Source of the DNA: Eubacterium sp.
GTDB lineage: Bacteria > Bacillota > Clostridia > Oscillospirales > Ruminococcaceae
Direction: 5' to 3'
Assembly (NCBI GenBank): GCA_022511265.1
Contig: JAFLRX010000005.1
Span: forward strand, 1-64,000
Length of the DNA: 64,000 bases
Of this stretch, positions 25,163 to 58,249 are shown one piece after another (the first letter of the stretch is position 1; each line of letters opens with the position of its first letter). The notes beneath the pieces were generated by a model, which was given only the letters and a program-made list of their open reading frames with translations, ran no database searches and was not told the origin of the DNA. The translations under genes were made by a program, and so were the position numbers.

Positions 25163-26284
25163 TTATACTTTTGCTCCCTTATTTACATAAACGGGATAAT
25201 CCTCGGTGCCTGCCAGCGAGCGGTAATCGCTGATGACTACGTTCTTATCGGTGATAACGTAGTTCATCTCTGCCTTTTCACCGACCTCGGTGTTCTGTAA
25301 CAGGATGCAGTTCTTGATATGCGCGCCCTTGCCGACCTTTACGCCTCTGAACAGCACGCAGTTTTCAACGGTGCCCTCGATAACGCAGCCGTCAGCAACC
25401 AGTGAGTTGGTGACCACCGAATCCAAGCCGTACTTTGCGGGTGCTTCGTCCTTTACCTTGGTGTATATAGGTGCGTCGCTGTTGAATATCTCAGCACGCA
25501 GCTGCTTGTCAACCAGCTTCATATTACTCTTGAAATATGTGTCAATGCTGTCTATCTGGAAGAACGGACCGTCAAACTTATAACCCAGCACCTTCATCTC
25601 ATTCAGCTTATGCTGAAGCACATCGACCTCAAAGCTGTACAGGTTGCGGCTCTGTGCCTCTCTGATGATATCCAGCAGAAAGTCCTTTGCAACCACGAAC
25701 ATATTAAGGCTTACGTTATGCTCGCCGCTTATCTCGGGACGCACCAGCACATCATATACCTCGTTGCTCTCGTTAACGGCAAGTACCGTCTTGGTCATAC
25801 TCTGCTGTGCGGTGAACACGCCGCGTCCGTAAACCACGGTGATGTCAGCCCCGTTCTTCTCATGGAAGTCAACTATCGGGCGATAGTCGATGTTGGCGAT
25901 AACATCCGCGTCGGACAGCAGAACGTAATCTGCGTTGCTGTCGGCGATAAACGGCTTTATCTGAGCCATAGCCTCCAGCCTGCCGCGGTACAGTCCGCCG
26001 CTGTTGCCGTAGGGCGGCAGCAGATGCAGTCCGCCGGTCTTGCGGGAGAGATCCCACTCGTCACCGTTGCCGATATGGTCTATCAGCGACAGGTAGTTAT
26101 CCTTGGTAACTATGCCGACATTGGAGATATCGGAATTTACCATATTGGAAAGCGGGAAATCCACCATTCTGTATCTCGCGCCGAAGGGCACACTGCCCAG
26201 CGCGCGGATCTTGGTAAGGTCCGGCACGTTGGTGTCGTGCATATTAGCAAATACCAGACCTAAAACACTTGACATATTAGCCAT
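25163..26284 (-). CDS. glgD: Glucose-1-phosphate adenylyltransferase, GlgD subunit
   Basis: The 373-residue protein belongs to the GlgD branch of ADP-glucose pyrophosphorylases. It has a nucleotidyltransferase fold (FGARYRMVDFPLSNMVNS) and a C-terminal left-handed beta-helix with hexapeptide-like strands from about residue 285. The usual GGxGxRL pyrophosphorylase loop is replaced by SSVLGLVFANMHD. GlgD of Firmicutes is therefore thought to be a regulatory partner that raises GlgC activity. It follows glgC by 18 bases with GGAGG nine bases before the ATG. Confidence 0.95.
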   Translation of the reverse strand: MANMSSVLGLVFANMHDTNVPDLTKIRALGSVPFGARYRMVDFPLSNMVNSDISNVGIVTKDNYLSLIDHIGNGDEWDLSRKTGGLHLLPPYGNSGGLYRGRLEAMAQIKPFIADSNADYVLLSDADVIANIDYRPIVDFHEKNGADITVVYGRGVFTAQQSMTKTVLAVNESNEVYDVLVRPEISGEHNVSLNMFVVAKDFLLDIIREAQSRNLYSFEVDVLQHKLNEMKVLGYKFDGPFFQIDSIDTYFKSNMKLVDKQLRAEIFNSDAPIYTKVKDEAPAKYGLDSVVTNSLVADGCVIEGTVENCVLFRGVKVGKGAHIKNCILLQNTEVGEKAEMNYVITDKNVVISDYRSLAGTEDYPVYVNKGAKV

Positions 26285-26302
26285 TTTCTTTCTCCTCCCC
26301 GC

Positions 26303-27508
26303 TTACACATTCTCGGAGATCATAGCCTTGGGGCCTATCTCCGCGTTATCGCTTACCGTTACCTGGTGTCCTACTACCGCAACACCCCAGGTGTCCTTGT
26401 CCTCGATGGTCTCGGGACGTGCGCCTATGTGGGCGTTCTCGCCTATTACGCAGTCCTCGCCTATGATAGCGTATTCTATAACCGCACCCTTTTTGATAAC
26501 GGTGTTAGGCATAATTATACTGTCACGGACAACCGCGCCCGGCTCGATGGTAACACCCGCGAACAGCACCGAGAATTCTATCATACCCTCGATGTCACAG
26601 CCCTCGCTTATCATCGAGTTCTGTATCTTGCTCTGTGTGCCTGCGTAATGCGGCGGCATAACGGGATTTCTTGAATAGATGTTCCAGTTGCTGTCATGCA
26701 GATCCAGCGGAACGTTGGGATCCAGCAGATCCATATTAGCCTCCCAAAGGCTGTCTATCGTTCCTACATCCTTCCAATAGCCGTCAAAGTGGTATGCAAC
26801 CAGCTTGTTGCCCTCTGCCAGCATTGCGGGGATGATGTTCTTACCGAAGTCCTTGCTTGCGCCCTCGTCGTTTTCGTTGGCGATGAGGTGCTTTTTAAGG
26901 TTCTGCCAGGAGAATATGTACACGCCCATTGACGCAAGGTTGGATTTAGGCTCCTTGGGCTTTTCCGCGAACTCGTAGATTATATCGTTCTCGTCAGCAC
27001 TCATGATACCGAAGCGTGAAGCCTCTTCCCACGGAACCTCCAGCACCGCGATGGTAGCGTCCGCGTTGTGCTGTTTGTGGAAGTCCAGCATCTTGCTGTA
27101 GTCCATTTTATAGATGTGGTCGCCGGACAGGATAGCAACATACTCGGGGTTGTATCTGTCTACAAAGCTGATGTTCTGATAGATAGCGTTAGCGGTACCC
27201 TCAAACCACGACTTACCTGCCGAGGTCTCATAAGGCGGCAGCACATGCACGCCTCCGTGTACGCGGTCCAGTCCCCAGGGGTGACCGTTGCCGATGTACT
27301 CGTTAAGTACCAGCGGCTGATACTGCGTCAGTACGCCGACCGTGTCGATACCGGAATTAACGCAGTTGGACAGCGGGAAGTCGATTATCCTGTACTTTCC
27401 GCCGTAAGGAACGGCGGGCTTTGCCATATCCTTGGTAAGGGCATACAGTCTGCTGCCCTGACCGCCTGCAAGCAGCATTGCTACACATTCTTTTTTAACG
27501 TGTTTCAT
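26303..27508 (-). CDS. glgC: Glucose-1-phosphate adenylyltransferase, catalytic GlgC
   Basis: GlgC makes ADP-glucose from glucose-1-phosphate and ATP, the committed step of glycogen synthesis. The 401-residue protein has the pyrophosphorylase loop [14 protein letters not shown] (13-26), then [19 protein letters not shown], the [10 protein letters not shown] metal site, and [11 protein letters not shown] beta-helix domain follows from about 290. It lies 23 bases after glgB and before glgD, giving a glgB-glgC-glgD operon. glgA and glgP are not in the window. Confidence 0.97.
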
Positions 27509-27531
27509 ATTATCCTCTTTTCCTCTTAAGT

Positions 27532-29604
27532 TTATTTGTCAGCCTTTGCGGGTTTTTCCGTCTTGGGCTTTTCAGTCTTTTTTGCGGGTTCCTTCTTCGC
27601 CGTCTTTGCCGCAGCCTTTGCGGTTGATTTTGCCTTTGCGGGAGTCTTAGCCGACGCTTTAGTCTCCGCCTTTGCAGCCTTTTTGACCTTATCGTCCTCA
27701 GGACTGCGCTTGTTAACAGGCTTTAAGTATATAGCGGACATAGCGGGTATCTTCATGGTGATAGAATACTCAAGTCCGTGCATAGGCTCGCACTTTGCGG
27801 TTATCTTGCCGCCTGCCTTGCTGTCGCCGCCGTACTTTTGGTTATCGGTGGTGAACACCACCTGATAATCCGCGTAGTACGGTACGCCGAAGCTGTACAG
27901 CTCCTGCTCCTGCGGCAGGAAGTTGCATACCGCGATTATCTCGTCGCCCTTTGAGTCGATACGGCGGAACACGATGATGCTGTTCTTATAGTCGTCGTTG
28001 GATATCCAGCTGAAGCCGCTCCAGTCGTAATCTATCTCCCACAGCGGTTTGTTTTCAACATAGAAATTATTGATATCCTTGACAAAGTCCTGATACTGCT
28101 TATGCTCGGGGAATTCCAGCACATCCCAGTCAAGTCCTGTCTTATAGTTCCACTCTCTGAACTGGGCGAATTCCTGTCCCATAAAGGTCAGCTTTTTGCC
28201 GGGGTGTGCGGTCATGTACGCAAGGAAAGTCCTCAGCGACGCAAAACGCTTTTCCCTGGGTCCGCTCATCTTGTCCAGCATGGAGCATTTGCCGTATACT
28301 ACCTCGTCATGCGAGATCGGGAGAATGAAGTTCTCCGAGAACGCATAGTAGAACGAGAATGTCAGCTTGTCGTGGTTGTACTGACGGTATTCGGGGCTCA
28401 TGGACATATAGGAGAGCATATCGTTCATCCAGCCCATGTTCCACTTGAAGTTAAAGCCCAGTCCGCCGATATCGGTCGGCTTGGTCACCATCGGCCACGC
28501 GGTGGATTCTTCCGCTATCATCAGCAGGCCCTTATGTCTTGAGAACAGTGCCGCGTTCAGCTTTTGTAAAAACGCCACCGCCTCAAGGTTCTCGTTGCCG
28601 CCGTGTACGTTGGGCGTCCACGCACCGCCCTGCCTGTCATAGTCAAGGTACAGCATTGACGCAACCGCGTCAACACGCAGACCGTCTATATGATACTCGG
28701 TTATCCAATAATTTGCGTTGGAGATAAGGAACGACTGCACCTCCGGCTTGCCCCAGTCAAACACGCGTGTGCCCCAGTTGTAATGCTCGCGCTTGTTGGG
28801 GTCGGAATACTCATAGCAGTAGTCGCCGTCAAACTCGTACAGACCCGCCGCGTCCTTCGGGAAATGCGCGGGTACCCAGTCAAGTATAACGCCGATACCG
28901 TGGGTGTGGCAGTAATCCACAAATTCCATAAAATCATGCGGTGTGCCGAAACGTGATGTAGGCGCATAATAGCCTATCTGCTGATAGCCCCAGCTGCCGT
29001 CGTACGGATATTCCGCCACCGGCATCATCTCGATATGGGTATAGCCCATTTTCTTTACATAAGGCACCAGCTTTTCAGCCAGCTGCATATATGAGAACAG
29101 CTCGTCCTCGTCCGCCTTTTTGAACCACGAATTGAGATGCAGCTCATACACGTTCATCGGAGAGCGGTAAACGTCCGCGGTCTCCTTCTTTGCCATCCAG
29201 TCTTTGTCCTTCCACTTATAACCGGAAATGTCATAGAGCTTGGAAGCCGTGTTGGGTCTGGTCTCCATATGGGTGCCGTAAGGATCGGCCTTCAGCTTTA
29301 TCTGACCGTAGGGGGTCTCAATGCTGTATTTGTAATTGTCGTACGTCTGCAGACCCGGCACAAAGGTCTCCCATATGCCGCCGTCGCTGACCTTGTTCAT
29401 ACGGTTGGCGTATCTGTCCCAGTTGTTGAAGTCGCCTACAACGCTGACACTTTTCGCCTTGGGTGCCCATACTCTGAAGGTCGCGCCCGCCTTGCCGTCT
29501 TGAACCGTAAAATGTGAGCCGAATACCCTGTACGCCTCTGCGTTATTTCCCTGATGAAACAGGTAAAGAGGCACTTCCAGCTCGTTAGGAACAGTGATTG
29601 ACAT
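27532..29604 (-). CDS. glgB: 1,4-alpha-glucan branching enzyme with a Lys/Ala-rich tail
   Basis: GlgB transfers glucan chains to form alpha-1,6 branches. The protein (690 residues) has the N-terminal CBM48 (about 30-110, with [20 protein letters not shown]) and the GH13 barrel. Catalytic motifs are [18 protein letters not shown] (nucleophile Asp), AEESTAWP (Glu) and ISHDEVV. A C-terminal beta domain follows. The last 59 residues (about 632-690) are an unusual tail, almost only K, A, P, T, E and S, resembling histone H1. The ATG follows AAAAGGGGT. It has its own promoter and leads the glg operon. Confidence 0.96.
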
Positions 29605-42196: not shown

Positions 42197-43669
42197 ATGA
42201 AAAAGATAATATCAACCATTTTGCTTGCATCTATGCTGCTGTCTTTGGCTGCGTGCGACCAGCAGACCGCTGAGCCGCAGGACAGCAACGGCTCGCAGAC
42301 AACAGACAGCTCACAGCCGACCGACAGCTCGCAGCCGACTGACAGCTCTGACGAGGGAACAGACAACCGCGAGACTACTCAGGACGGATGGTATATACAG
42401 CCGGGTCTGACAGGCTCGTTCTCCGAACACCCAGTGGCTTTGGACGAAAACGGCGAGGTGGATATGGATGTGGCACTTGCGTATGAGACCGACATTGACG
42501 CGCTTATCAAAGAGCTGGAGGCGCAGCCGGTGGACGGCAGCAAGCCTGTATCCAAAAACGCCAGCGAGGAGACTGTCGCGCTGTTCAACTTCTTAAGAGA
42601 AAACTACGGCAAGAAAATATTCGCCGGACAGCAGATATTTGACAACGCGCAGTATGAGGATATCCTCTACTACATCGAGACCGGTGATCTTCCTGCGATA
42701 AAGGGCTTTGATATGATCTTCTCTACCGGAAATCAAAGCATAAACGATTATCAGATAGAAGAGGCTATCAAGTGGCACACCCAGCAAAACGGCATCGTTG
42801 CATTCTGCTGGCACTGGCAGGTACCCATTGATATAGACGTCGAGAATACCACCGCGATACATTTCTACACCGAGCATATTACCAACTTCAGTCTGGAAAA
42901 CGCGGTTACCCCTGGCACAAAGGAATATGAAATAGTTATCAAGGATATAGACACAGTTGCGCTGAAGCTGCAAAGGCTGGAGGCGGCAGGCGTGCCGGTG
43001 CTGTGGAGACCTCTGCACGAGGCAAGCGGCACATGGTTCTGGTGGGGTCAGACCAGAGAAGCATACGAAAACCAGCTTTATCAAAAGCTGTGGTATATGG
43101 TATATGACCGTCTTGAGAATTATCATAAGCTTACCAATCTTATCTGGGTATGGAACGGTCAGAATGCCGCTACAAAGGTAAACGCCAACACCTATGACAT
43201 AGGCGGTATGGACATTTACCCGAACAATGAGGATCACTCCGCACAGGCGGGACAGTATAATGCCCTGTCAAACATTATGGACGAAAACAAGATGGCGGCA
43301 ATATCCGAATGCGGATATATCCCCGACGATGACGAGGTATTCGCGGAGGACAGTGACGTAAAGTGGCTTTACTTTATGCCGTGGTACGGTGACTTTATCT
43401 GCAACGCCACCGACAGCGGTATGATAATCACCTCCCTTGGCGGCACACCGACGGTAAACGAGAAACGCATCTCATCCGAGCTGCTGAAAAAGATATATGC
43501 GTCGGACAAGGTGATCACCCTGAGCGAGCTGCCCGATTGGGACGGCACCCCTAAATATCTCCCGCAGTATATAAGGACATGGAAGTTCAACAATCAGAAC
43601 CGCGAGACTGCCGAGTCCAAGCTGACCGATTATCTGGACGAGGACCCCGGCATAGACCTGCACGAATAA
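42197..43669 (+). CDS. GH26 beta-mannanase lipoprotein
   Basis: The 490-residue protein has a lipoprotein signal (SLAAC, Cys20) and a Ser/Thr/Asp/Gln-rich linker (21-62) with the tandem repeat SSQPTD. A GH26 barrel follows (about 125-470). The acid/base Glu275 lies in LWRPLHEASGTWFWWG, which matches the family almost exactly, and the nucleophile Glu371 in AAISECGYIP. It should cut beta-1,4-mannan on the outer membrane face of the cell. The ATG follows GAAAGGAT. An aldose-epimerase-like gene begins 15 bases downstream, so the two form an operon. Confidence 0.93.
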   Translation: MKKIISTILLASMLLSLAACDQQTAEPQDSNGSQTTDSSQPTDSSQPTDSSDEGTDNRETTQDGWYIQPGLTGSFSEHPVALDENGEVDMDVALAYETDIDALIKELEAQPVDGSKPVSKNASEETVALFNFLRENYGKKIFAGQQIFDNAQYEDILYYIETGDLPAIKGFDMIFSTGNQSINDYQIEEAIKWHTQQNGIVAFCWHWQVPIDIDVENTTAIHFYTEHITNFSLENAVTPGTKEYEIVIKDIDTVALKLQRLEAAGVPVLWRPLHEASGTWFWWGQTREAYENQLYQKLWYMVYDRLENYHKLTNLIWVWNGQNAATKVNANTYDIGGMDIYPNNEDHSAQAGQYNALSNIMDENKMAAISECGYIPDDDEVFAEDSDVKWLYFMPWYGDFICNATDSGMIITSLGGTPTVNEKRISSELLKKIYASDKVITLSELPDWDGTPKYLPQYIRTWKFNNQNRETAESKLTDYLDEDPGIDLHE

Positions 43670-43684
43670 TAAAGGAGCTGCAAT

Positions 43685-44539
43685 ATGGAACTCACCTTAA
43701 CTAACGGTAATAACCGTGCGGTCATCTCCTGCCACGGTGCAGAGCTGAAAAGCCTTGTCATAGGCGGCAGAGAGCTGATATGGCAGACGGATGAAAAGTA
43801 TTGGAACAAATCCTCGCCCGTGCTGTTCCCCGCGATAGGCAATGTAAAAAACAATCTCACCACGATAAACGGAGAAGAAATAAAGCTGTCAAAGCACGGC
43901 TTTATGCGGGATAAGGATTTTATCCCGACGCAGCACGGCGAAAGTGCCGCCGACTTTTCCTACACCTACAGCCCGGTTAAGGGAGAATATCCTTTCGCCT
44001 GCTTGCTGACTATGTCATATCACCTTAGCGAGGACGCGCTGACAATAACCTATATTGTCGAAAATCTCGACAACGGCACAATGTGGTACTGCATAGGCGC
44101 ACATCCTGCTTTTGCCTGCGACGATCTTGACAAATGCTCGGTAAAATTCGAGTACAGAGAAGTAGCCGCTACACCAGTAAAAGACGCGGACGGAATTTTC
44201 CAAGACGGCAAGCGTGTAGAGCGTATCAACGGCAATACTCTCCTACTGCTTTACTACGATATGTTTGACGAGGACGTGGTATATTTTGACAGGCTGAGGT
44301 CGCACACCGTGACGTTTATGGATAACATCAAGACGCTCGCGGTAATAAGCTTTGAGGGCTTTGAGACACTGGGACTGTGGACGCCCGCGGGCAAGCGCGC
44401 GCCGTTCTTGTGTATCGAGCCGTGGTGCGGCAGTGACGACTACGACACCGACGACGGAATATTCGAGCATAAGCGCGGCATACAATCGCTTGAGCCGAAA
44501 GGGACAAAGCGTTACAGTATGACAATAAAAGCGGAATAA
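43685..44539 (+). CDS. Aldose 1-epimerase family protein
   Basis: The 284-residue protein has the galactose-mutarotase fold: SCHGAELKSLVIGGRELIWQ at the start, SPVLFPAIGNVKN, then IGAHPAFAC with the conserved histidine and a C-terminal LCIEPWCGSDD with the acidic catalytic residue. Members interconvert alpha and beta sugars. Located right after the mannanase with AAAGGAG before its ATG, it may speed use of mannose or related sugars released from mannan. It belongs to the LacX-like branch, whose exact sugar is uncertain. Confidence 0.88.
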   Translation: MELTLTNGNNRAVISCHGAELKSLVIGGRELIWQTDEKYWNKSSPVLFPAIGNVKNNLTTINGEEIKLSKHGFMRDKDFIPTQHGESAADFSYTYSPVKGEYPFACLLTMSYHLSEDALTITYIVENLDNGTMWYCIGAHPAFACDDLDKCSVKFEYREVAATPVKDADGIFQDGKRVERINGNTLLLLYYDMFDEDVVYFDRLRSHTVTFMDNIKTLAVISFEGFETLGLWTPAGKRAPFLCIEPWCGSDDYDTDDGIFEHKRGIQSLEPKGTKRYSMTIKAE

Positions 44540-48508: not shown

Positions 48509-50881
48509 TTAATTGTAGCTTGTAAAGCCTAAGTTATTGATACTTAATCCTGTTCTTTCAAGAAGGAAAAGTTTAAAAATACGTAATGATAAGTGCATAT
48601 GAGAATTTGTAAGAGACGATACTTTTGAAGCGCTTATCAGATTGGACGAACGGTAAGTAACGTCAAAATAAACAGTGGTATCTTCAGTTAAAGCCGATTT
48701 TTTCACTGTCGCATCAGCGATAGAATGGAAATTATCAACCAAGCTCATACTGATTATATCAATATATGATGAATTGCTGAAGGTTATAGTTGTGAAAGTC
48801 GCACCGGTATCTGATGCAGATAACGCTGCCACTTCAAACTCAGCAGTCGATGACAGATATGTAACTGTCATATATGTATCCAGATCTCTCGTATTGAATG
48901 AATAATCTACATAGTAATTTCCGTTACTGTCGATAGATCCGTACCTCAAAATATAATTCTTTAAGGTGGAATAGCCTGTTTGAGTAGTAGAACCGGATGT
49001 AGCCGCTGAGCCACTGGTCATTGCTGTCAAAGTGGTATAATTACCGTAAAGTGCCGTGCTGCCGGACATCTTGTACGCGCAGATACGGAAAGTATAGGAT
49101 GTTCCCGCGGATAAACCGGATTTCTTAAATTCAACGGTAGAGTTATTGCTTATCTTGCCTACACGTTTCCATGTGCTGCCGCTCTTTTGCTCTATTATGT
49201 AACCGTCAGCAGTGGTGTTCTTTGTCCAGGTCAGGCGAAGCGCGTCTTTGGCAGAATTTTTCAGCTTAAAGCCTTTTACAACAGTCGGATTTGTACGATA
49301 GCTTACAGTAGTATATTTACCGTAAAGCGCCGTGTTGCCGGACATCTTATATGCGCAGACACGGAAGCTGTAAGCAGTGCCTCCGGCAAGACCGGACTTC
49401 TTAAATTCAACGTTAGAATTGCCGGTTACCTTTCCTGCCCTCTTCCATACGCCGTTTACCAGCATTTCAACAATATAACCGTCTGCTGAGGTGTTGCGCG
49501 TCCATGTAAGACGCAGCGCGTCAGCGGCGCGGGCTTTCAGCGTCACGCCCTTCATTGCGGACGGATTGGTGCGAGCCGATATAGTCTTGGTGTTGCCGTA
49601 CAGTGCGGTGCTGCCCGACATTTTGTATGTCTTGATGCGTATATTGTAAACAGTTCCCGCAGACAGTGTCTTGCCATTAACCTTTGTAAACTTAAATTCT
49701 GTTGTGTTGGGGTTGGTTACCTTGCCTACTCTTACCCAGTCGTTGCCAGACTGTACTTCAATAATGTATCCGCTTGCGGTAGGATTCTTTGTCCACTGCA
49801 CGCGCAGTGCGTCAGCAGCACGCGCCTTCAGCTTAAAGCCGCTTACTATCGTGGGGTTTGTTGTGTATGAAACGGTTGAAGTCTCACCGTATACTTTTTT
49901 GCCATTATCTAAATAATACGGCTTTATCCTGAAGCTATACTTTGTACCGCCGTTAAGATCATCTACACGGTATTCAGTAGTATTTGCACTCAGCGAATCG
50001 GAAACGGTCTTCCACGCCCCGTTTTTCTGCACCTCCAGAACATAACCGTCTGCACCGTAGGTCTGCTCCCATTTTACTCTGATTGCATCAGCTGCGCGTC
50101 CTTTGAGGTTGAAACCATTCACAACAAATCGTGTAGTAGTGGTGTCGACATATGAATAATCGCTGTAAACCGTCTCTTCCTCATTATCATTATATGAGCA
50201 TATACGGAAGCTGTAGGCAGTATTGACATTCAGTCCAGTAACCTCATATTCGGTCACGGAGTTGTCGCCAATTTTAGTAACTTCTTTCCAAGATGAACCG
50301 ACCTTCTGTTCGAGTATGTAACCGTCAGCGGTATAGTCTCTGTCCCATGTCAGGTACAACGATGTTGCATATGCTTTTTTAAGTTCAAAGCCGGTAACCG
50401 GATCGCCAAAGAAATGTATGTTTGCATCTTCTAGAGTTGTATCATAAGATGGATATGTCGTAACCGCTTTCCACTGTTCCTCTGTACCGCTATAATACAC
50501 ATCCTTGAAACTATTGCAATACATGAAAGCATATACGCCAATCTCTGTTAAGCTATCAGGTAAAGCTATCCATTCAAGCTTTGAGCAATATTCAAAAGCG
50601 TAACTTCCAATGCTTTTTACTCCGTCTGGAACCGTTATATCAGTAATAGACGAACATCTGTAAAAAGCTTGAGAACCTATTGCACTGACCTGCTTGCCGC
50701 CTAAAACAGACGGTATTTCCAAACTGGTATCTGTTCCGTTATATCCACTGATAGATACAGTCCCATCGCTTTTCACGCTATAGGTATAATCCCCATACGT
50801 CTCCGCCCCCGCGCACACGGCACATATCGCGCACATAGCAATCGCGCCGATAAGCACGGCTAAAAATTTTTTAACTTTCAT
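48509..50881 (-). CDS. Secreted BspA-type LRR protein with five FN3 modules
   Basis: The 790-residue protein has a Sec signal (about 1-26). A short LRR_5/BspA-like block follows (about 60-140, with VPDGVKSIGSYAFEYCS and LPDSLTEIGVYAFMYCN). Then come five fibronectin III modules (about 161-250, 251-341, 342-438, 439-530, 531-622), a Ser/Thr/Gly linker, and an unrecognised C-terminal domain (about 640-790). The FN3 units share the core ADGYIIE and YKMSGSTALYG with those of the neighbouring GH5. No dockerin or sortase signal is seen, so it is probably released. It may bind fibre or cells. AAAGGAGAG precedes the ATG; the frame is open for 102 codons upstream, but that part lacks a signal. Confidence 0.85.
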   Translation of the reverse strand: MKVKKFLAVLIGAIAMCAICAVCAGAETYGDYTYSVKSDGTVSISGYNGTDTSLEIPSVLGGKQVSAIGSQAFYRCSSITDITVPDGVKSIGSYAFEYCSKLEWIALPDSLTEIGVYAFMYCNSFKDVYYSGTEEQWKAVTTYPSYDTTLEDANIHFFGDPVTGFELKKAYATSLYLTWDRDYTADGYILEQKVGSSWKEVTKIGDNSVTEYEVTGLNVNTAYSFRICSYNDNEEETVYSDYSYVDTTTTRFVVNGFNLKGRAADAIRVKWEQTYGADGYVLEVQKNGAWKTVSDSLSANTTEYRVDDLNGGTKYSFRIKPYYLDNGKKVYGETSTVSYTTNPTIVSGFKLKARAADALRVQWTKNPTASGYIIEVQSGNDWVRVGKVTNPNTTEFKFTKVNGKTLSAGTVYNIRIKTYKMSGSTALYGNTKTISARTNPSAMKGVTLKARAADALRLTWTRNTSADGYIVEMLVNGVWKRAGKVTGNSNVEFKKSGLAGGTAYSFRVCAYKMSGNTALYGKYTTVSYRTNPTVVKGFKLKNSAKDALRLTWTKNTTADGYIIEQKSGSTWKRVGKISNNSTVEFKKSGLSAGTSYTFRICAYKMSGSTALYGNYTTLTAMTSGSAATSGSTTQTGYSTLKNYILRYGSIDSNGNYYVDYSFNTRDLDTYMTVTYLSSTAEFEVAALSASDTGATFTTITFSNSSYIDIISMSLVDNFHSIADATVKKSALTEDTTVYFDVTYRSSNLISASKVSSLTNSHMHLSLRIFKLFLLERTGLSINNLGFTSYN

Positions 50882-51158: not shown

Positions 51159-51187
51159 ATTTTACCACAGTTTTCCCAAAAAATCAA
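51159..51187 (-). promoter_or_regulatory. Promoter of the LRR/FN3 gene
   Basis: Minus-strand TTGATT, 17 bases, TAAAAT. Transcription would begin at or next to the outer end of the inverted repeat. Confidence 0.65.
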
Positions 51188-51201: not shown

Positions 51202-51234
51202 ATATACCGCCGCCCCTGTGGGACGGCGGTATAT
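51202..51234 (-). terminator. Terminator of the che-GH5 operon
   Basis: Eleven-base stem ATATACCGCCG/CGGCGGTATAT plus inner CCC/GGG pairs, followed on the minus strand by T6, five bases past the GH5 stop. Confidence 0.9.
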
Positions 51235-51238
51235 GTTG

Positions 51239-53506
51239 TTACTTTGTTTTTGCGCTTATTGTTGCCCAGCCGCCGTAAAGGGCGGTGCTGCCGGACATCT
51301 TGTATGTCCTTACTCTGAAGTTGTAGGAGGTTGCCTTTTTCAGTCCGGTTATTCTCAGCTCGGTGACGGTGTTGTCGGTTATCTTGCCGACACGTACCCA
51401 TGTGCTGCCTACCTGCTGTTCTATGATATAGCCGTCCGCGCTGGTATTCTTTGTCCAGCCGATACGTATCGCGTCTGCTGCGGTGCCCTTTACGGTCAGC
51501 CCAGTAATAGGTCCGGGATATGTGCGCCAGCTGCCGGTGGTATAGCCGCTGTACAGTGCGGCGGTGCCACTCATCTTATACGACCTTACTCGGAAGCTGT
51601 ATGCATTGCCCGCCTTCAGCCCGCTGATGCGGTATTCGGCGGTTGAATTGTTGGTTATCTTGGCGATGCGGGTCCAGGTGTCGCCTACCTTCTGCTCGAC
51701 AATATAACCGTCCGCAGAAGTGTTTTTATCCCACGCTATGCGCAATGCGTCGCTTGCCCTGCCCTTAAGATAAAGTCCGGTTATACCCGACGGCTTGGTG
51801 TCATAGGTGCCGGTGGAATATGCGCTGTAATAAGCGGTGCCGCCCGATACTCTGTACGCCTTGATGCGGAAGCTGTATGCTGTGCCTGCCTTCAGTCCGT
51901 CGATACGGTACTCGGTGGTGGCATTGCTTGTCAGCTTTGCGATGCGGGTCCATTTGCCGCTTATCTGCTGCTCGATTATATAGCCGTCAGCCACGCTGCT
52001 CTTGTTCCAGCCGAGACGCAGAGCGTCTGCGGCTCTGCCCTTGAGATACAGTCCGCTGACGCTGGACATATATGTACGGTAGGTGCCGGTGGTGTATGCA
52101 CTGTACATTGCGGTGCTGCCGAACATCTTGTACGCCTTGACACGGAAGCTGTAATCGGTGTCAGCCTTTAATCCGCTGATACGGTATTCGGTGGTGGCGT
52201 TGCTTGTTATTTTCGCAATGCGGGTCCATGTGCTGCCGACCTTCTGCTCGATTATGTAACCGTCGGCGGAGGTGTTTTTGTTCCACGCTATGCGCAGCGC
52301 GTCGCTCGCCTTGCCCTTGAGGTAAAGTCCGGTGACATTAGCGGGCGGGGTGGGCGGCAGATAGTTCTGCACCATACGGTCAACAAAGTTTTTGTCGTAC
52401 CATGAGAGATTTTTTCTGTCAAGGTGTCCGTGTGCCTCGCCCTTGTCGCTGTTGTTGTAGGCGTTGTTATCCCACAGAACGCAGGGTATGCCGAGATCGG
52501 ACGCTTTGCCGAAAAAGTAGTCCGCCCATTTGAGACGCTCGCTCGCGTTGCCCTTGTTGGATGCGCTGGTCTCACCGATAACTACCGGGATATTCTTGGA
52601 TATGAACTTGGTGTTTAAGGTATCGAAGAGGTAGTCCACCTCGCTCTTCAGCGAGTCGGAGAATACAGATGTCCCGCTGCCGTTAAGGCAGAAGTTGTAC
52701 GGCGTATACGCATGTACAGAGACCATTAGGCGGTTGCTCGCGCTGTCGGTCGGCATCTTAAAGGTCGGTGTGGTGCAGCCGTCTATCGACGCGTCATAGC
52801 CGGGTACCATTATGCAGCGGTCGGCGTTGTTGCCGCCGGACGCCCTTATCACGTCAACCGAAGCCTGGTTAAGCTCGTTTATCACGCTTATCGCGTCTTT
52901 AACGTTAGCGTTGGGGCTGTTCACCGGGAACCACCATTCGTCGCTTGTTCCGACAAGGCGGGGTTCGTTCAGCGTCTCAAAAATGAGATGCTGGTCGTAA
53001 TTTTTAAATGTCGCGCTGACCTGTTTCCATATCGACTTTACAAAGTTCAGCGACTGGGTCTTGTACGCACTGCTGGGGTAATAATAGTTCTTATCGTTGT
53101 CGTGATGGATATTGAGTATTACATACATATCGTTGGCTATGCAATAATCAACGACCTCTTTTACCCTTGCCATCCAGGCGGAGTCTATCGTATAGTTAGA
53201 GCCGGAGGTGTGTCTACCCCACGAAACAGGTATTCTCACCGTGTTAAAGCCCTCTGCCTTTACAGCGTCAATCATCGCCTTTGTGGTCTTGGGGTTGCCC
53301 CATGAGGTCTCGCTGGAGACACCGCTGCCGCCGGTGGCGTCAAGGGTGTTGCCGAGGTTCCAGCCTGCGCCCATTTCTGCGGAGATCTGCTTTGCGGTCT
53401 TTCCGGTCAGAGCCGCAGAGGCAGGCTGCGAGGAAAGCGCTGTCAACGACATAAGCAAGATCACAAATGCCAGAGCAGCCAAAGATAATTTTCTGATTGC
53501 AGTCAT
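51239..53506 (-). CDS. Secreted GH5 endoglucanase with four FN3 modules
   Basis: The 755-residue protein has a Sec signal (cleavage likely after ASA, residue 31). A GH5 catalytic domain follows (about 35-380) with MGAGWNLGNTLDA, INIHHD-like LNIHHDND, acid/base Glu181 in FETLNEPR, VHAYTPYNF and nucleophile Glu312 in VVIGETSA. The pattern fits subfamily GH5_4, enzymes acting on cellulose, xyloglucan or glucomannan. A short proline hinge leads to four FN3 modules (389-755). No CBM, dockerin or anchor is present. It starts 36 bases after cheB, with GAAAGGA before the ATG, and no promoter or terminator between them, so it appears to be the last gene of the chemotaxis operon. Confidence 0.92.
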   Translation of the reverse strand: MTAIRKLSLAALAFVILLMSLTALSSQPASAALTGKTAKQISAEMGAGWNLGNTLDATGGSGVSSETSWGNPKTTKAMIDAVKAEGFNTVRIPVSWGRHTSGSNYTIDSAWMARVKEVVDYCIANDMYVILNIHHDNDKNYYYPSSAYKTQSLNFVKSIWKQVSATFKNYDQHLIFETLNEPRLVGTSDEWWFPVNSPNANVKDAISVINELNQASVDVIRASGGNNADRCIMVPGYDASIDGCTTPTFKMPTDSASNRLMVSVHAYTPYNFCLNGSGTSVFSDSLKSEVDYLFDTLNTKFISKNIPVVIGETSASNKGNASERLKWADYFFGKASDLGIPCVLWDNNAYNNSDKGEAHGHLDRKNLSWYDKNFVDRMVQNYLPPTPPANVTGLYLKGKASDALRIAWNKNTSADGYIIEQKVGSTWTRIAKITSNATTEYRISGLKADTDYSFRVKAYKMFGSTAMYSAYTTGTYRTYMSSVSGLYLKGRAADALRLGWNKSSVADGYIIEQQISGKWTRIAKLTSNATTEYRIDGLKAGTAYSFRIKAYRVSGGTAYYSAYSTGTYDTKPSGITGLYLKGRASDALRIAWDKNTSADGYIVEQKVGDTWTRIAKITNNSTAEYRISGLKAGNAYSFRVRSYKMSGTAALYSGYTTGSWRTYPGPITGLTVKGTAADAIRIGWTKNTSADGYIIEQQVGSTWVRVGKITDNTVTELRITGLKKATSYNFRVRTYKMSGSTALYGGWATISAKTK

Positions 53507-53542
53507 AATTTATTCCTTTCGTTTTAAGCGGCGTTGCCGCAA

Positions 53543-54112
53543 TTAGCCATTGATCAGCCCGCTCAGCAGGATAAATATTTCCTCCGGCGGCGCCTGTACG
53601 TCTACAGCACCCAGCTCATATGCCGCGCGCGGCATACCGTATACCACGCAAGACTCTTTATCCTGCGCAACGGTGGTACAGCCTGCCTGCTTCATCTCCA
53701 GCAGACCCTGTGCGCCGTCCTTGCCCATACCTGTCAGCAATACGCCTACCGTGTCCTTTTCGCCGAGCTTTGCCACCGACTGAAACAGCACATCTACCGA
53801 GGGGCAATGCCCCGATACCTTTTCGCCTGTGCCGACCTGAAGATAAAACCTGTCGCCGTCGCTTATCACCCTCAGCTGTCTGTCGGCGCGGGCGGTGACT
53901 ATCATTCCTTTTTCAAGGCGGTCGCCGTCGTCCGCCTCTTTCACACGCATTTTGCACACCTTTGACAGCCGCTCGGCATATATCGAGGTAAACATATCCG
54001 GCATATGCTGCACGATCACCACCGGCGGACAGTCGGCAGGCAGCCCCTTTACCACCTCGATTATCGCGTCGGTGCCGCCTGTGCTGGCGCCTATCGCTAT
54101 CAGCTTTATCAT
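53543..54112 (-). CDS. cheB: Chemotaxis methylesterase CheB, catalytic domain only
   Basis: CheB removes methyl groups from chemoreceptors. The 189-residue protein is only the methylesterase domain: IGASTGGTDAI with catalytic Ser10, VIVQHMP with His36 and LLTGMGKDGAQG with Asp132. The N-terminal receiver domain that normally controls CheB by phosphorylation is missing; the start is clear because the sequence opens directly with the first strand of the catalytic domain. It follows cheR by 25 bases. Confidence 0.93.
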   Translation of the reverse strand: MIKLIAIGASTGGTDAIIEVVKGLPADCPPVVIVQHMPDMFTSIYAERLSKVCKMRVKEADDGDRLEKGMIVTARADRQLRVISDGDRFYLQVGTGEKVSGHCPSVDVLFQSVAKLGEKDTVGVLLTGMGKDGAQGLLEMKQAGCTTVAQDKESCVVYGMPRAAYELGAVDVQAPPEEIFILLSGLING

Positions 54113-54137
54113 AAGATCAGCTCTTCCTGTTATGTCG

Positions 54138-54974
54138 TCAGTCTAACGGCTTGCGATAGACTGCGGGGGCAATGTACTCGAATTTCTTCATCTCTCTGGG
54201 TATCCCCTCAGAATGCCCGATAAACAGATATCCGCCGGGGCGCAGCACGTCATAAAACCGCTCCAGCAGCTTTGCCCGCGTTTCCTTTTCAAAATATATC
54301 ATCACATTACGGCAGAAGATAAGGTCAAACGGCTCTTTCTTGAACGGTATCTCGTCCATAAGGTTGAACATCTTGAAAATAACGCCGTCGCGTATCTCCT
54401 TTGATATCTTTATCCGCTCGCCGTCTACGTCGGTAAAGTATCTGTCCACCCAGCCGTCGGGCAGCTGTTGCGCGCTTTTCCTCGGATATACGCCGTTTTG
54501 CGCCGCGGCAAGAATTTTTACCGAAATGTCGGTGGCGAGTATGCGGGTGTCCCAATAATGCTTTTCCCGCCCGAGATATTCGCTGATGAACATTGCGGCG
54601 GTGTATGCCTCTTCCCCGCTGGAGCAGCCCGCGCTCCAGATACGCATACTGCGCTTTGCGCTGTTTTTGCGCACCATGTGCGGCAGCACAGTGTCGTTCA
54701 GAAATGTAAAATGCTCCGGCTCGCGCATAAAAAACGTATGGTTGGTGGTCAGGCTGTTTACCATCTGCTGCATCTCGCTGCCGCGCAGGTCCATAAAGCA
54801 ACGGTCGAGATATTCGGTATATCCGTTAAATCCGCGCTCGGTCAGCATGCTGCCCAGCCTGCCCTCTACCAGCGCGCGCTTTCCCTCAAGGTTTATCCCG
54901 TACGCGTCCTTTATATAGTTTACCAGCCTGTCAAAGTCTCTGTCGTCTATCCTCAGTACACCGTCCACGGTCAC
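54138..54974 (-). CDS. cheR: Chemotaxis protein methyltransferase CheR
   Basis: CheR methylates glutamates on chemoreceptors using SAM. The 278-residue protein has the N-terminal helical domain (about 10-80, with VEGRLGSMLTERGF) and the Rossmann domain with TTNHTFFMREPEHF, RIWSAGCSSGEEAYTAAM (SAM motif), ATDISVKIL and FDLIFCRNVMIYF. It starts with GTG and overlaps the cheW stop by four bases. It lies between cheW and cheB in an operon. Confidence 0.95.
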   Translation of the reverse strand: MTVDGVLRIDDRDFDRLVNYIKDAYGINLEGKRALVEGRLGSMLTERGFNGYTEYLDRCFMDLRGSEMQQMVNSLTTNHTFFMREPEHFTFLNDTVLPHMVRKNSAKRSMRIWSAGCSSGEEAYTAAMFISEYLGREKHYWDTRILATDISVKILAAAQNGVYPRKSAQQLPDGWVDRYFTDVDGERIKISKEIRDGVIFKMFNLMDEIPFKKEPFDLIFCRNVMIYFEKETRAKLLERFYDVLRPGGYLFIGHSEGIPREMKKFEYIAPAVYRKPLD

Positions 54975-55501
54975 ACCAACGGCTCGGGGGTGCGGTCGCC
55001 CAGCAGTCTTTCTACGTCCAGCACCAGATTTACGCCGTCCTCCGTCTCAACGATATACTTTATGAATTTATCCGCGTTGACATTCATCGCGTCGGGTGTT
55101 GCCGACATATTGCTCTCCCTTACAGGCAGCACGTCCGACACGCTGTCCGCGATAAGTCCCACCGTCATATCCAATGCGTTGACGATTATCACGCAGGTGC
55201 GGTCGGTGTATGCTGTCTCCGGCTTGTTAAAGCGGGTACGCATATTCATCACCGGCACTATCTTACTGCGCACGTTGATTATGCCCTTTATGTACTCCGG
55301 TACGGCAGGCACAACGGTGATGTGGGGTATCTCTATTATCTCGGTGACATACTCTATCTCTATCGCATAGGTCTGCTCTGCCACCTTAAAGGTCAGCACC
55401 TTTGATATCTCTTTATCATAGTCTTCCTGCTGCGCCAGCTGCGCCTTCATACGCAGGTCGAGCAGCTCTTCAAAGGTATCCATCGGTTTTTCCGTCGGCA
55501 T
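54971..55501 (-). CDS. cheW: Chemotaxis coupling protein CheW
   Basis: CheW links chemoreceptors to CheA. The 176-residue protein has a short helical N-terminal extension (about 1-35) and then the SH3-like CheW fold: VLTFKVAEQTYAIEIEYVTEII, YIKGIINVRSKIVPVMNMR with the conserved NxRG-like turn, and a closing ILPV-like LPVRES. It follows cheA by 13 bases and overlaps cheR. Confidence 0.94.
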   Translation of the reverse strand: MPTEKPMDTFEELLDLRMKAQLAQQEDYDKEISKVLTFKVAEQTYAIEIEYVTEIIEIPHITVVPAVPEYIKGIINVRSKIVPVMNMRTRFNKPETAYTDRTCVIIVNALDMTVGLIADSVSDVLPVRESNMSATPDAMNVNADKFIKYIVETEDGVNLVLDVERLLGDRTPEPLV

Positions 55502-55514
55502 AATATCCTCCGTA

Positions 55515-57584
55515 TCAGTCTGTATTTATCAGATTATTTACGTCAATTATCAGCGAGATGCTGCCGTCGCCCATTATCGTACAGCCGGACAGACCCTGCT
55601 GCTTGATATTGTATCGGCTCAAAAATTTCGGGAACGGCTTTACCACCACCGGCTGCTCGCCTATCAGCTTATCCGCGAACAGGCATATGTCCTTGCCGCC
55701 CGCTTTGACTACAAGTAAAATGCCCTGTTTCAGGTCGGTGACATCGGTCTGCATTTTAAATTTTTCATGCAGCCGCAGTATCGGATAGCAGGTGCCGCGT
55801 ATCATTATCATCTCGCCGCTTTCGGTGTCAGTCAGCAGGCGGTTTTCGTTGACCATAAGGCTCTCCCGCACCGAGGATATTGGCACGGTCAGCACGGTGT
55901 CGCCCACCTGCAATTTCATACCGTCAACTATAGCGAGCGTCAGCGGTATCTTTATGATAAAGCTTGTGCCCTTGCCCTCTTCACTCTCAACGGTGAGGGT
56001 GCCGCCTATCTGCTCGATATTGCTCTTTACCACGTCCATACCAACGCCGCGGCCGGAATATTCGGTCACCTGCTCGTTGGTGGAAAAGCCGGGCAGCAAT
56101 ATCATATTAAGTATCTCTTTAGCGGAATAATCCTCAGCGGGGCGTGACAGCATGCCGTTTTTCTGTGCCTTGGCAAGCACCTTTTTCTTATCTATTCCCG
56201 CGCCGTCGTCGCTGACTGTGATTATTACCTCACCTGAGGCGTTGCGCGCCGCCAGCTTTACGTATGCCTTGGCGGGCTTGCCCTTTGCTATACGCTCGTC
56301 GACGGTGTCCTCTATTCCGTGGTCCATACAGTTGCGGACAAGGTGCATCAGCGGGTCGTTCAGCATATCGACAATGCTCTTGTCCACCTCGGTGTTTTCA
56401 CCCTCTAATATCAGCTCCGCGTCCTTGTTCAGCTTGACCTTCATGTCGCGGACAACACGCCCCATTTTCTGGAACACGCCCGCCAGCGGCACCATGCGTA
56501 TCGACATAACGGTGTCCTGCAATTCGTCAGTCAGCTTTCTCAGCTGTCTTGCCGCCTTGGAAAAGTTCTCCAGTTTCAGTCCCTCAAGGTCGGGGTTGGC
56601 GGTCACCATAGACTCGGTGGTGATTATCTCGCCCACTATGTCATGCAGCAGATCCAGCTTGGCAAGGTTTACGCTGATAAGGCTTTGCTTTTGTCCGCTG
56701 CCTGCCGCCTTTTTTATCTCCTCCTGCGTCTTTTGCGCGGCGGATTTTTCCGCTTTGGGTGCGGGGGTGCTTTCCGGCTTAGTCTCTTCCGGCTTGGCTT
56801 CTGCCTGCACGGGTGCGGACGGCTCGGATTTTGTATTTACCACCTCGTAGGATTCGACATTCACCGCATCCTCGATAAGCGTTAAAATATCCTCGTTGGT
56901 TACCTCTGTCGCCCTGAACACCACGATAAAACCGTTTTCTATGATATCCTTTGCGGTGTCGGCATTGGTCTCTACATCAGGCGGAACGCACGCCAGTATC
57001 TCTGCGTCGTCCTTTATCTTGTTAAGCAGCAGGAAAGCGCGGAGGTTTTCCATACCGCAGCCCGCCTCAAAATGTACTCTGACGGTCATTGCGCCGTCTG
57101 CGGCACTTTCGGGCGGCAGCTCGCCGCTGCCTGTTGCCGCCGCGGGGGCTGCGCCGCCGTCTTCCATCGCCTTCAGCTGCTTTGCGGCACTCTCAAGGCG
57201 GGAGATGATATCCGAAAAATCGGTCGGCTCAAAGTCCTCGGGACTGGACTGTATTATGTCTATCTCCGCCTTATACAGGTCGGAGACGGTGAATATCAGC
57301 TCGTACACAAACTGCGCGTCCTTTACCAGCTCCGGCTTTTCACGGATGATAAAGAACAGGTCCTCGCCCTTGTGCGCTATCTTTTGCAGATTGTCAAAGC
57401 CCATCATCGCTGACGAGCCCTTTATCGTGTGCATTATGCGGAACACCTCGTTGATGTCCTCTTCGATAAAAGTATTTGCGCCTTCGGTGCGTATAAGTAT
57501 CTCGTCCAACTGCTCTAACATCGAGCCGGTCTCAAATATGTACATATCCAGCATGGATTCCATGCCGGGTTCTATTTTTGCCAT
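55515..57584 (-). CDS. cheA: Chemotaxis histidine kinase CheA
   Basis: CheA is the kinase that passes receptor signals to CheY. The 689-residue protein has the Hpt domain (P1, with phospho-His52 in RIMHTIKGSSAMMGF), a P2-like region (about 165-255) and a Glu/Pro/Lys linker. The dimerisation domain P3 follows, then the kinase core with LMHLVRNCMDHGIED (N box), VSDDGAGID (G1) and GRGVGMDVVKSN (G2), and a C-terminal CheW-like domain. It leads the cheA-cheW-cheR-cheB-GH5 operon. No cheY, receptor or flagellar gene is visible in the window. Confidence 0.96.
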   Translation of the reverse strand: MAKIEPGMESMLDMYIFETGSMLEQLDEILIRTEGANTFIEEDINEVFRIMHTIKGSSAMMGFDNLQKIAHKGEDLFFIIREKPELVKDAQFVYELIFTVSDLYKAEIDIIQSSPEDFEPTDFSDIISRLESAAKQLKAMEDGGAAPAAATGSGELPPESAADGAMTVRVHFEAGCGMENLRAFLLLNKIKDDAEILACVPPDVETNADTAKDIIENGFIVVFRATEVTNEDILTLIEDAVNVESYEVVNTKSEPSAPVQAEAKPEETKPESTPAPKAEKSAAQKTQEEIKKAAGSGQKQSLISVNLAKLDLLHDIVGEIITTESMVTANPDLEGLKLENFSKAARQLRKLTDELQDTVMSIRMVPLAGVFQKMGRVVRDMKVKLNKDAELILEGENTEVDKSIVDMLNDPLMHLVRNCMDHGIEDTVDERIAKGKPAKAYVKLAARNASGEVIITVSDDGAGIDKKKVLAKAQKNGMLSRPAEDYSAKEILNMILLPGFSTNEQVTEYSGRGVGMDVVKSNIEQIGGTLTVESEEGKGTSFIIKIPLTLAIVDGMKLQVGDTVLTVPISSVRESLMVNENRLLTDTESGEMIMIRGTCYPILRLHEKFKMQTDVTDLKQGILLVVKAGGKDICLFADKLIGEQPVVVKPFPKFLSRYNIKQQGLSGCTIMGDGSISLIIDVNNLINTD

Positions 57585-57628: not shown

Positions 57629-57690
57629 AAAAAAGTCAAAACTACCCTATATTAATATAATACACTAAATCGTATGGAAAATCAAGTGGA

Positions 57691-57725
57691 AAATGAAAAA
57701 AGCCGCGCTGCGGCTTTTTTCATTT
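57691..57725. terminator. Terminator of the Nudix gene
   Basis: Sixteen-base stem AAATGAAAAAAGCCGC/GCGGCTTTTTTCATTT with loop GCT. It directly follows the Nudix stop and separates it from the che operon. Confidence 0.88.
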
Positions 57726-58249
57726 TATTCATTTTTCGTAAACGTCCCTCTTTGGTTTCTCATAAAGAACAACAGACGGATGATCTCCTTATGATACGGG
57801 ATAAATATACCCTCGTCTATCATTGCGATTATCTCGTCGGCGGTCGCCCATTTCACCGTCTTGACCTCCTCGGGCTGGAGTGTCAGCTTGTCTATGTCAA
57901 GGTCGGCATGCACCGTATAGATATCGTCAAAGCCCTCGTCATAGTGTATGGTTATCACCGGGCGGGCATTTTCAAAACTGATATCCGCGCCCAGCTCTTC
58001 CAGCGTCTCGCGGTGCGCGGCAGAGGTGCTTGTGTCTCCCGCGACGGCAGAGCCGCCGACAGACACATCCCACATTCCCGACCAGCCGGCCTTAAACGGC
58101 TGACGCTGCTGTATCAGCATCTTCCCCTCAGAGTTGAATATGCAGACGTGTACCGCAAGATGATAATACCCCGCGGGGATAGGCTCGCCGCGGGGGATGG
58201 TTTTACCTGTCCTCTCCCGCTCGGCGGTGTATAGGTCGAATATTTCCAT
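57725..58249 (-). CDS. Nudix hydrolase
   Basis: The 174-residue protein has the Nudix box GSAVAGDTSTSAAHRETLEE plus LGA, with Asp in place of the usual first Glu but REx2EELG intact. The N-terminal EIFDLYTAERERTGKTIPRG is typical of the YfcD/isopentenyl-diphosphate-isomerase-like branch that hydrolyses nucleoside diphosphate derivatives. The ATG lies a short distance after the hairpin at 58287-58312. Substrate unknown. Confidence 0.88.
   Translation of the reverse strand: MEIFDLYTAERERTGKTIPRGEPIPAGYYHLAVHVCIFNSEGKMLIQQRQPFKAGWSGMWDVSVGGSAVAGDTSTSAAHRETLEELGADISFENARPVITIHYDEGFDDIYTVHADLDIDKLTLQPEEVKTVKWATADEIIAMIDEGIFIPYHKEIIRLLFFMRNQRGTFTKNE

Follow-up and report, generated by a model that had tools for sequence, protein, structure and literature searches.

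A chemotaxis gene run closed by a secreted GH5 endoglucanase gene in Eubacterium sp. and a sub-clade of its genus

In Eubacterium sp. (Bacillota; Clostridia; Oscillospirales; Ruminococcaceae in GTDB), the chemotaxis genes cheA, cheW, cheR and cheB are followed on the same strand by a gene for a secreted endoglucanase of glycoside hydrolase (GH) family 5. The five genes lie in a stretch of 64,000 nucleotides, here called the window, that covers positions 1-64,000 of the forward strand of contig JAFLRX010000005.1 (assembly GCA_022511265.1); the host genome is coded G000. The same arrangement is found in a sub-clade of the genus that includes genomes with and without recognizable flagellar genes. 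The reading that we favour, by a modest margin over even odds, is that of one cheA-cheW-cheR-cheB-GH5 operon that would go back to an ancestral insertion of the GH5 gene, would serve fibre foraging, and in the lineage of G000 would act through a non-flagellar output. The elements of the block are the following.

55515..57584, minus strand: cheA, with Pfam domains Hpt, P2, H-kinase_dim, HATPase_c and CheW; phospho-acceptor His and ATP-binding motifs kept
54971..55501, minus strand: cheW, Pfam CheW
54138..54974, minus strand: cheR, Pfam CheR_N and CheR
53543..54112, minus strand: cheB, Pfam CheB_methylest; 189 aa, methylesterase domain only, without receiver
53507..53542, minus strand: cheB-GH5 spacer of 36 bp, containing a hairpin of 5 bp and an AAAGGAA sequence that resembles a ribosome-binding site
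51239..53506, minus strand: secreted GH5 endoglucanase, Pfam Cellulase PF00150 (E=3.8e-72), four fn3 stretches
51202..51234, minus strand: intrinsic terminator at the operon end, from the terminator scan (-27.1 kcal/mol for the folded stretch)
57657..57685, minus strand: candidate sigma-A promoter for the operon, with TTGATT and TATTAT 17 bp apart
57690..57726, listed by the scan on the plus strand only: near-palindromic hairpin resembling a terminator, with the NUDIX gene on its upstream side and the operon downstream

Re-reading of the coordinates returned the gene order and the gaps of 13, -4, 25 and 36 bp given by the initial annotation, with all five genes on the minus strand, and Pfam agrees for every gene. 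The same annotation had a GH5 enzyme with a signal peptide closing the chemotaxis gene run, and placed the first clear terminator behind it, at 51202-51234. The PF00150 match and a signal-peptide-like start, read from the sequence, confirm the former, and the terminator scan agrees with the latter. Its description of the cheB-GH5 spacer as free of promoter and hairpin stands in part. The promoter scan of the window lists no minus-strand promoter-like site from 55334 to the GH5 start; the spacer does, however, contain the 5-bp hairpin GCGGC-AAC-GCCGC (-6.9 kcal/mol by folding). This hairpin is unlike a terminator because no T-run follows it. At the other border of the block, T-rich sequence follows the hairpin at 57690..57726 on the minus strand too.

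Since the gaps are short, the borders fit and the order is kept in relatives, the simplest reading is that cheA to GH5 forms one operon, and on the sequence data we regard this as very probable. Transcription would start at the sigma-A-type promoter ahead of cheA and end at the terminator behind GH5. Both the sequence and the conservation of the block within the clade lend good support to co-expression of the five genes as one operon, as first proposed.

The GH5 protein begins with a signal-peptide-like stretch ending in ...PASA, and its catalytic domain spans residues ~33-382. Its best match among solved structures is Cel5C (PDB 4nf7, E=2.7e-129), with the catalytic domain aligned over its length, and the second-best PDB match, 6xsu, is named GH5-4; the enzyme probably belongs to GH5 subfamily 4. 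Both catalytic Glu residues (in LNEPR and IGETS) are kept in the window enzyme and in 14 other aligned sequences. The fibronectin type III (FN3) stretches of the enzyme resemble those in other proteins of G000. One of these proteins is encoded in the window itself (48509-50881, minus strand): it is a secreted-looking BspA-type leucine-rich repeat (LRR) protein, and its five FN3 stretches are similar to those found in the GH5. Its start in the list of open reading frames is a TTG at 51187, and its signal-peptide-like start is an ATG at 50881. FN3 arrays like those of the LRR protein and the GH5 are present in several further reading frames of G000. The che-linked GH5 proteins of two relatives, G026 (L132 6259-9009) and G024 (L138 162-2933), carry a CBM65 domain, a xyloglucan binder.

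We searched 71 genomes of the genus for cheB and GH5. A cheB match was obtained in 59 of them, and loci were read in 14 genomes besides G000 and annotated by comparison with the window genes; G005, with a partial cheB at a contig edge, was left out. GH5 directly follows cheB in ten of the 71 genomes (G000, G001, G021, G024, G026, G032, G034, G049, G052 and G053). In G063 and G064, where cheB gave no match, GH5 follows cheR, a reading of cheR-GH5 loci that leaves out six cheB-less genomes of the genus (G003, G004, G010, G028, G040 and G051). In G065, a 5'-nucleotidase gene (L133 8227-9957) is inserted between cheB and GH5. In total, the che run ends with GH5 in 13 of 71 genomes: ten times after cheB, twice after cheR and once after the inserted gene. 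The start of the same 5'-nucleotidase gene follows cheB in G069 (L143); the contig stops inside this gene, and G069 was not counted among the GH5 carriers. The synteny check thus recovers the cheB-GH5 junction in nine genus genomes besides G000, and the junction is not absent from all relatives, an absence that the initial annotation had named as refuting its reading.

Two other readings of these loci were rejected. A CheB-GH5 fusion in G034 (open frame of 1175) was discarded, the cheB stop lying 15 bp before GH5, and the gene between cheB and GH5 in G065, considered as a receptor gene, is the 5'-nucleotidase. This 5'-nucleotidase has a signal peptide similar to the one on the GH5 encoded next, as though one were a copy of the other.

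Outside the sub-clade, no same-strand GH5 was found after cheB in any of the 46 other cheB-bearing genus genomes, which were read up to ~5 kb (less than 300 bp in three). One of these 46 loci has a 42%-identical GH5 on the opposite strand, ~3.3 kb away. A public genome set gave 80 cheB loci, seven from the genus and 73 from the outgroup. GH5 follows cheB in seven of the 80, and a 500-base comparison identified these as seven of the ten genus genomes with the junction. They are labelled Ruminiclostridium sp., Oscillospiraceae bacterium or uncultured Clostridia bacterium, and four of them are from the gut of goat, roe deer or water deer. No GH5 follows cheB in the 73 outgroup loci within the sequence covered (less than 500 bp after cheB in three). 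Among these loci, 48 had a same-strand next gene that was scanned, 21 had none, and four were set aside where a larger opposite-strand frame overlapped. The gene after cheB in the 48 loci encodes FliD in ten cases, GtrA in six, a receptor, CheW or a response regulator in three each, and others; no hydrolase occurs among the families listed for them (25 of 34).

Two outgroup loci, L057 (68-925) and L090 (11-991), carry a match to the GH5 catalytic domain (29-31% identity) on the cheA strand, 2.8-3.0 kb upstream of that gene. These matches are distant and non-adjacent, yet they show a GH5 in the neighbourhood of che genes a second time. Starting from the enzyme, we took the best GH5 match per genome in the 25 best-matching non-genus genomes (of 396 family genomes), and found no che gene within ~1.5 kb of it in any of them, one being without readable upstream sequence. 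As far as searched, immediate che-GH5 linkage is a trait of one sub-clade.

The carriers fall into two groups, nine flagellated ones (G001, G021, G024, G026, G032, G034, G049, G052 and G053) and a flagellum-less one, to which G000, G063, G064 and G065 belong; together with G069, the latter are the five flagellum-less che genomes. In a CheA tree, G000, G063, G064 and G065 split from the nine flagellated genomes with a support of 100/100. In a tree of GH5 catalytic domains, G021, G024, G026 and G034 group together well (100/99), and the flagellum-less genomes do so weakly (89/32). Among the latter, identity levels are similar for the two proteins, 76-83% for the GH5 catalytic domain and 77-84% for CheA. 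None of the flanking genes compared occurs in both carrier groups, and within the flagellum-less group different genes lie upstream of cheA. The GH5 gene would have settled behind cheB in the ancestor of the sub-clade and been inherited with the che genes; gain in a common ancestor followed by vertical descent fits these sequence comparisons, although it is not proven. The persistence of the block is most telling across the two carrier groups, and less so within the flagellated group.

The element before cheA is also conserved. TTGATT-17-TATTAT precedes cheA in all five flagellum-less che genomes and is the best or second match of the cheA upstream region in four of them. For the flagellated relatives, a search of the region before cheA for a sigma-28 flagellar promoter gave nothing convincing (best 8 of 11).

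Neither flagellin (PF00669) nor the FHIPEP export protein (PF00771) gave a match in G000. The initial annotation had proposed that release of the enzyme is tied to taxis toward the sugars it frees; because both families are unmatched in an assembly that is 99.87% complete, this proposal is, as worded, not supported for G000. It stays open for the nine FHIPEP-bearing relatives with the same operon. Flagellin is without a match in 11 of the 71 genus genomes, including G000, G063, G064, G065, G069 and G050, and FHIPEP was detected in nine of the 18 genomes tested, which are exactly the flagellated carriers of the operon. All nine gave a flagellin match as well; in G021, G052 and G053, this match is single and weaker (E 1e-11 to 1e-13) and is possibly a hook-associated protein, so their flagellated status derives mainly from FHIPEP.

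The sensing chain, on the other hand, is retained in G000. Three proteins have an MCP domain, one of them with dCache (L176 7695-9917) and one with PocR, and CheY is present as a single-domain response regulator encoded beside CheC and CheD (L180 9155-8793). MCP and CheD matches were obtained in all five flagellum-less che genomes (CheD in 13 of the 18 genomes tested), and the CheA motifs looked for are kept in all 13 genomes checked. Four genomes, G050, G066, G067 and G068, gave no CheA orthologue. A 900-aa repetitive, secreted-looking protein is encoded after cheY-cheC-cheD in G000, on the same strand and 91 bp after cheD (L180 4866-7568, minus strand).

The PilT family scored above cut-off in all 18 genomes tested, including G000, and the ATPase gene beside one of the PilT-family motors of G000 probably encodes PilB. 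Elsewhere in G000 (L181 4061-5411, minus strand), a second single-domain response regulator gene lies beside a gene for a protein with a cyclic di-GMP (c-di-GMP) binding motif of the MshE type and a weak CheX match; this pair is a candidate link to pili.

The CheB protein of the window keeps the motifs GASTGG, VQHMP and TGMGKDG, and Pfam finds no receiver domain in it. Eight of the nine flagellated clade CheBs were scanned (G034 was outside the scan) and none has a Pfam receiver beside the methylesterase domain; Response_reg was found in all three outgroup CheBs scanned alongside. A strict phospho-Asp motif is present in none of the nine flagellated clade CheBs, against 62 of 68 outgroup CheBs, five of the 73 having been dropped with a short or cut N-terminal part. 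Of the six outgroup CheBs without it, two or more still have the Asp within a near variant of the motif. Comparison of the clade CheB N-terminal part with the outgroup receiver gave a weak hhalign match (E=0.0005, probability 31.5%), and with hmmsearch it passes the inclusion threshold in two of nine. These alignments suggest that the N-terminal part of the clade CheBs is a decayed receiver. In a typical CheB, the receiver holds the esterase in check for as long as CheA has not phosphorylated it, and loss of the receiver would cut this feedback. Feedback on CheB through CheA phosphorylation has apparently been lost across the clade. The occurrence of receiver loss and GH5 linkage in one clade may be a coincidence, both being possibly single events on one branch.

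Taken together, the operon would yield the chemosensory core and a secreted beta-glucanase at the same time, so that a cell that senses would also free plant-fibre sugars, a form of foraging. The flagellated relatives presumably have swimming as its output. In the lineage of G000, flagella appear to be gone while receptors and CheA, W, R, B, Y, C and D are kept, presumably for another output, and type IV pili used on fibre are our leading guess. That sensing and fibre cutting are functionally tied is plausible, at about even odds in our view. That type IV pili are the output in the G000 species is a tentative guess from co-occurrence. A rewired fibre-foraging system, in which CheB is freed from CheA phosphorylation, flagella have become dispensable, the products of the operon's own enzyme are sensed and the pathway steers an appendage on the cell surface, for instance type IV pili, seems to us unlikely.

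Several observations weigh against the operon as a foraging unit inherited from one ancestor. A divergent gene of ~621 aa lies beside cheA in all nine flagellated carriers (L130-L132, L134-L139; identity to the G001 gene 79-100%), and in five of the nine GH5 is followed by a glycosyltransferase gene, two of the other four being at contig ends; conservation inside this group is therefore partly general synteny. The divergent gene was considered as a receptor gene, but the G001 copy, the one scanned, matched nothing in Pfam or NCBIfam. A single event may underlie all the junctions, and the genomes are therefore not independent trials. Seven of the 14 inner forks of the GH5 tree are open, and the identity of the window GH5 to flagellated carriers (70-79%) comes close to that to flagellum-less ones (80-83%). 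G050 has a GH5 without a match to CheB, a CheA orthologue, CheD or MCP in a genome-wide search of those four, and the enzyme hence does not need the pathway. PilT is also found in the four genomes without a CheA orthologue, which leaves pili tied to the pathway by co-occurrence alone. Sigma-70-like matches of 9 of 12 start at most 60 bp from GH5 in G001, G049 and G064, and to judge from such matches a promoter for GH5 could lie inside cheB.

Alternatively, GH5 would be a passenger with no functional tie to sensing, kept behind cheB by a slow pace of rearrangement or by borrowing a well-expressed transcript. G050 and the conserved neighbours outside the block would fit this alternative, as would a clade traceable to a possible single insertion. 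Other secreted proteins, moreover, gather at the same place: a second GH5 lies downstream in G026 and G053, besides the 5'-nucleotidase of G065. Yet the flanks differ between the two carrier groups and among the flagellum-less genomes while GH5 stays, and GH5 is still attached in G063 and G064, where cheB is missing. We consider a passenger unlikely, although it is the strongest of the alternatives.

A different objection concerns transcription. If GH5 had its own promoter in cheB or in the spacer, the block would consist of two transcription units. The sigma-70-like matches near GH5 in three relatives would agree with this, and so would small spacer hairpins in G000, G063 and G049. In the window, however, the best sigma-70-like match within the last 150 bp upstream of GH5 is only 7 of 12, and no strong minus-strand terminator precedes GH5 in the scan, which lists just a 5-pair one inside cheR. 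Spacers at the ten cheB-GH5 junctions measure 15-62 bp and are below 30 bp in eight of them (taking the likely start in G001), leaving little space for a promoter. Two units are accordingly quite improbable in our estimate.

Least probable of all is that the che operon of the flagellum-less lineage is a decaying remnant with selection acting on GH5 only: the missing flagellin and FHIPEP, the missing CheB receiver, the failure to find CheB in G063 and G064, a CheR motif (one fixed pattern) unmatched in G064 and G065, a VQHMP unmatched in the CheB of G065, and G050 without any CheA orthologue all point that way, but the four flagellum-less genomes checked, 77-84% identical in CheA, keep its His and ATP-binding motifs, MCP and CheD persist in all five, as does the promoter-like element before cheA, and receiver decay is already present in the flagellated relatives.

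Elsewhere in the window, a GH26 gene followed by an aldose epimerase gene lies at 42197-44539 (plus strand), and glycogen-type genes for a GlgB-like branching enzyme and two nucleotidyl transferases lie at 25163-29604 (minus strand).

To our knowledge, the question whether bacteria couple the release of sugars from insoluble fibre to the sensing of those sugars is mostly discussed on ecological grounds. With both functions in one operon, in 13 genomes with and without flagella, this coupling would become testable with simple mutants. The clade also offers a natural series around the loss of flagella, from decay of the CheB receiver through a missing receiver and a missing CheB to the enzyme alone in G050.

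No published che operon that ends in a glycoside hydrolase gene was found among the open-licence papers listed, as judged by titles and the first lines of abstracts. The closest precedent is a study of biogas-digester fosmid contigs (PMC4466528), in which receptor genes lie near GH genes and a chemotaxis-like regulation of cellulose degradation was proposed. It is an earlier proposal joining chemotaxis-type signalling with GH5 and other hydrolases. The contigs differ from the present locus in that MCP genes stand among hydrolase and transport genes; cheB is unmentioned in the text, and no GH ends a che operon in the relevant passages. In Ruminococcus (PMC3672088), adhesion to fibre is described as mediated by type IV pili, with a pilus protein that rises on cellulose. 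These bacteria are comparable as gut fibre degraders; the terms chemotaxis and CheA are absent from the main text of that report.

Chemosensory classes that steer type IV pili or alternative cellular functions are named in PMC3447774. G000 is like such systems in having a chemosensory set and pilus motors without flagellar matches; it differs in that its che gene content is as in its flagellated relatives and that no pilus genes were noticed beside the che operon. Compared with the che operons of Clostridia and Oscillospiraceae, the window has the same cheA-cheW-cheR-cheB order, which is that of 51 of the 73 outgroup loci, but it differs by lacking a flagellin or FHIPEP match in its genome, by a CheB without a recognizable working receiver, and by the appended secreted GH5. 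The enzyme itself shares the catalytic domain and both Glu residues with GH5 endoglucanases such as Cel5C (4nf7), and is set apart from them by its FN3 stretches and by its setting in a che operon.

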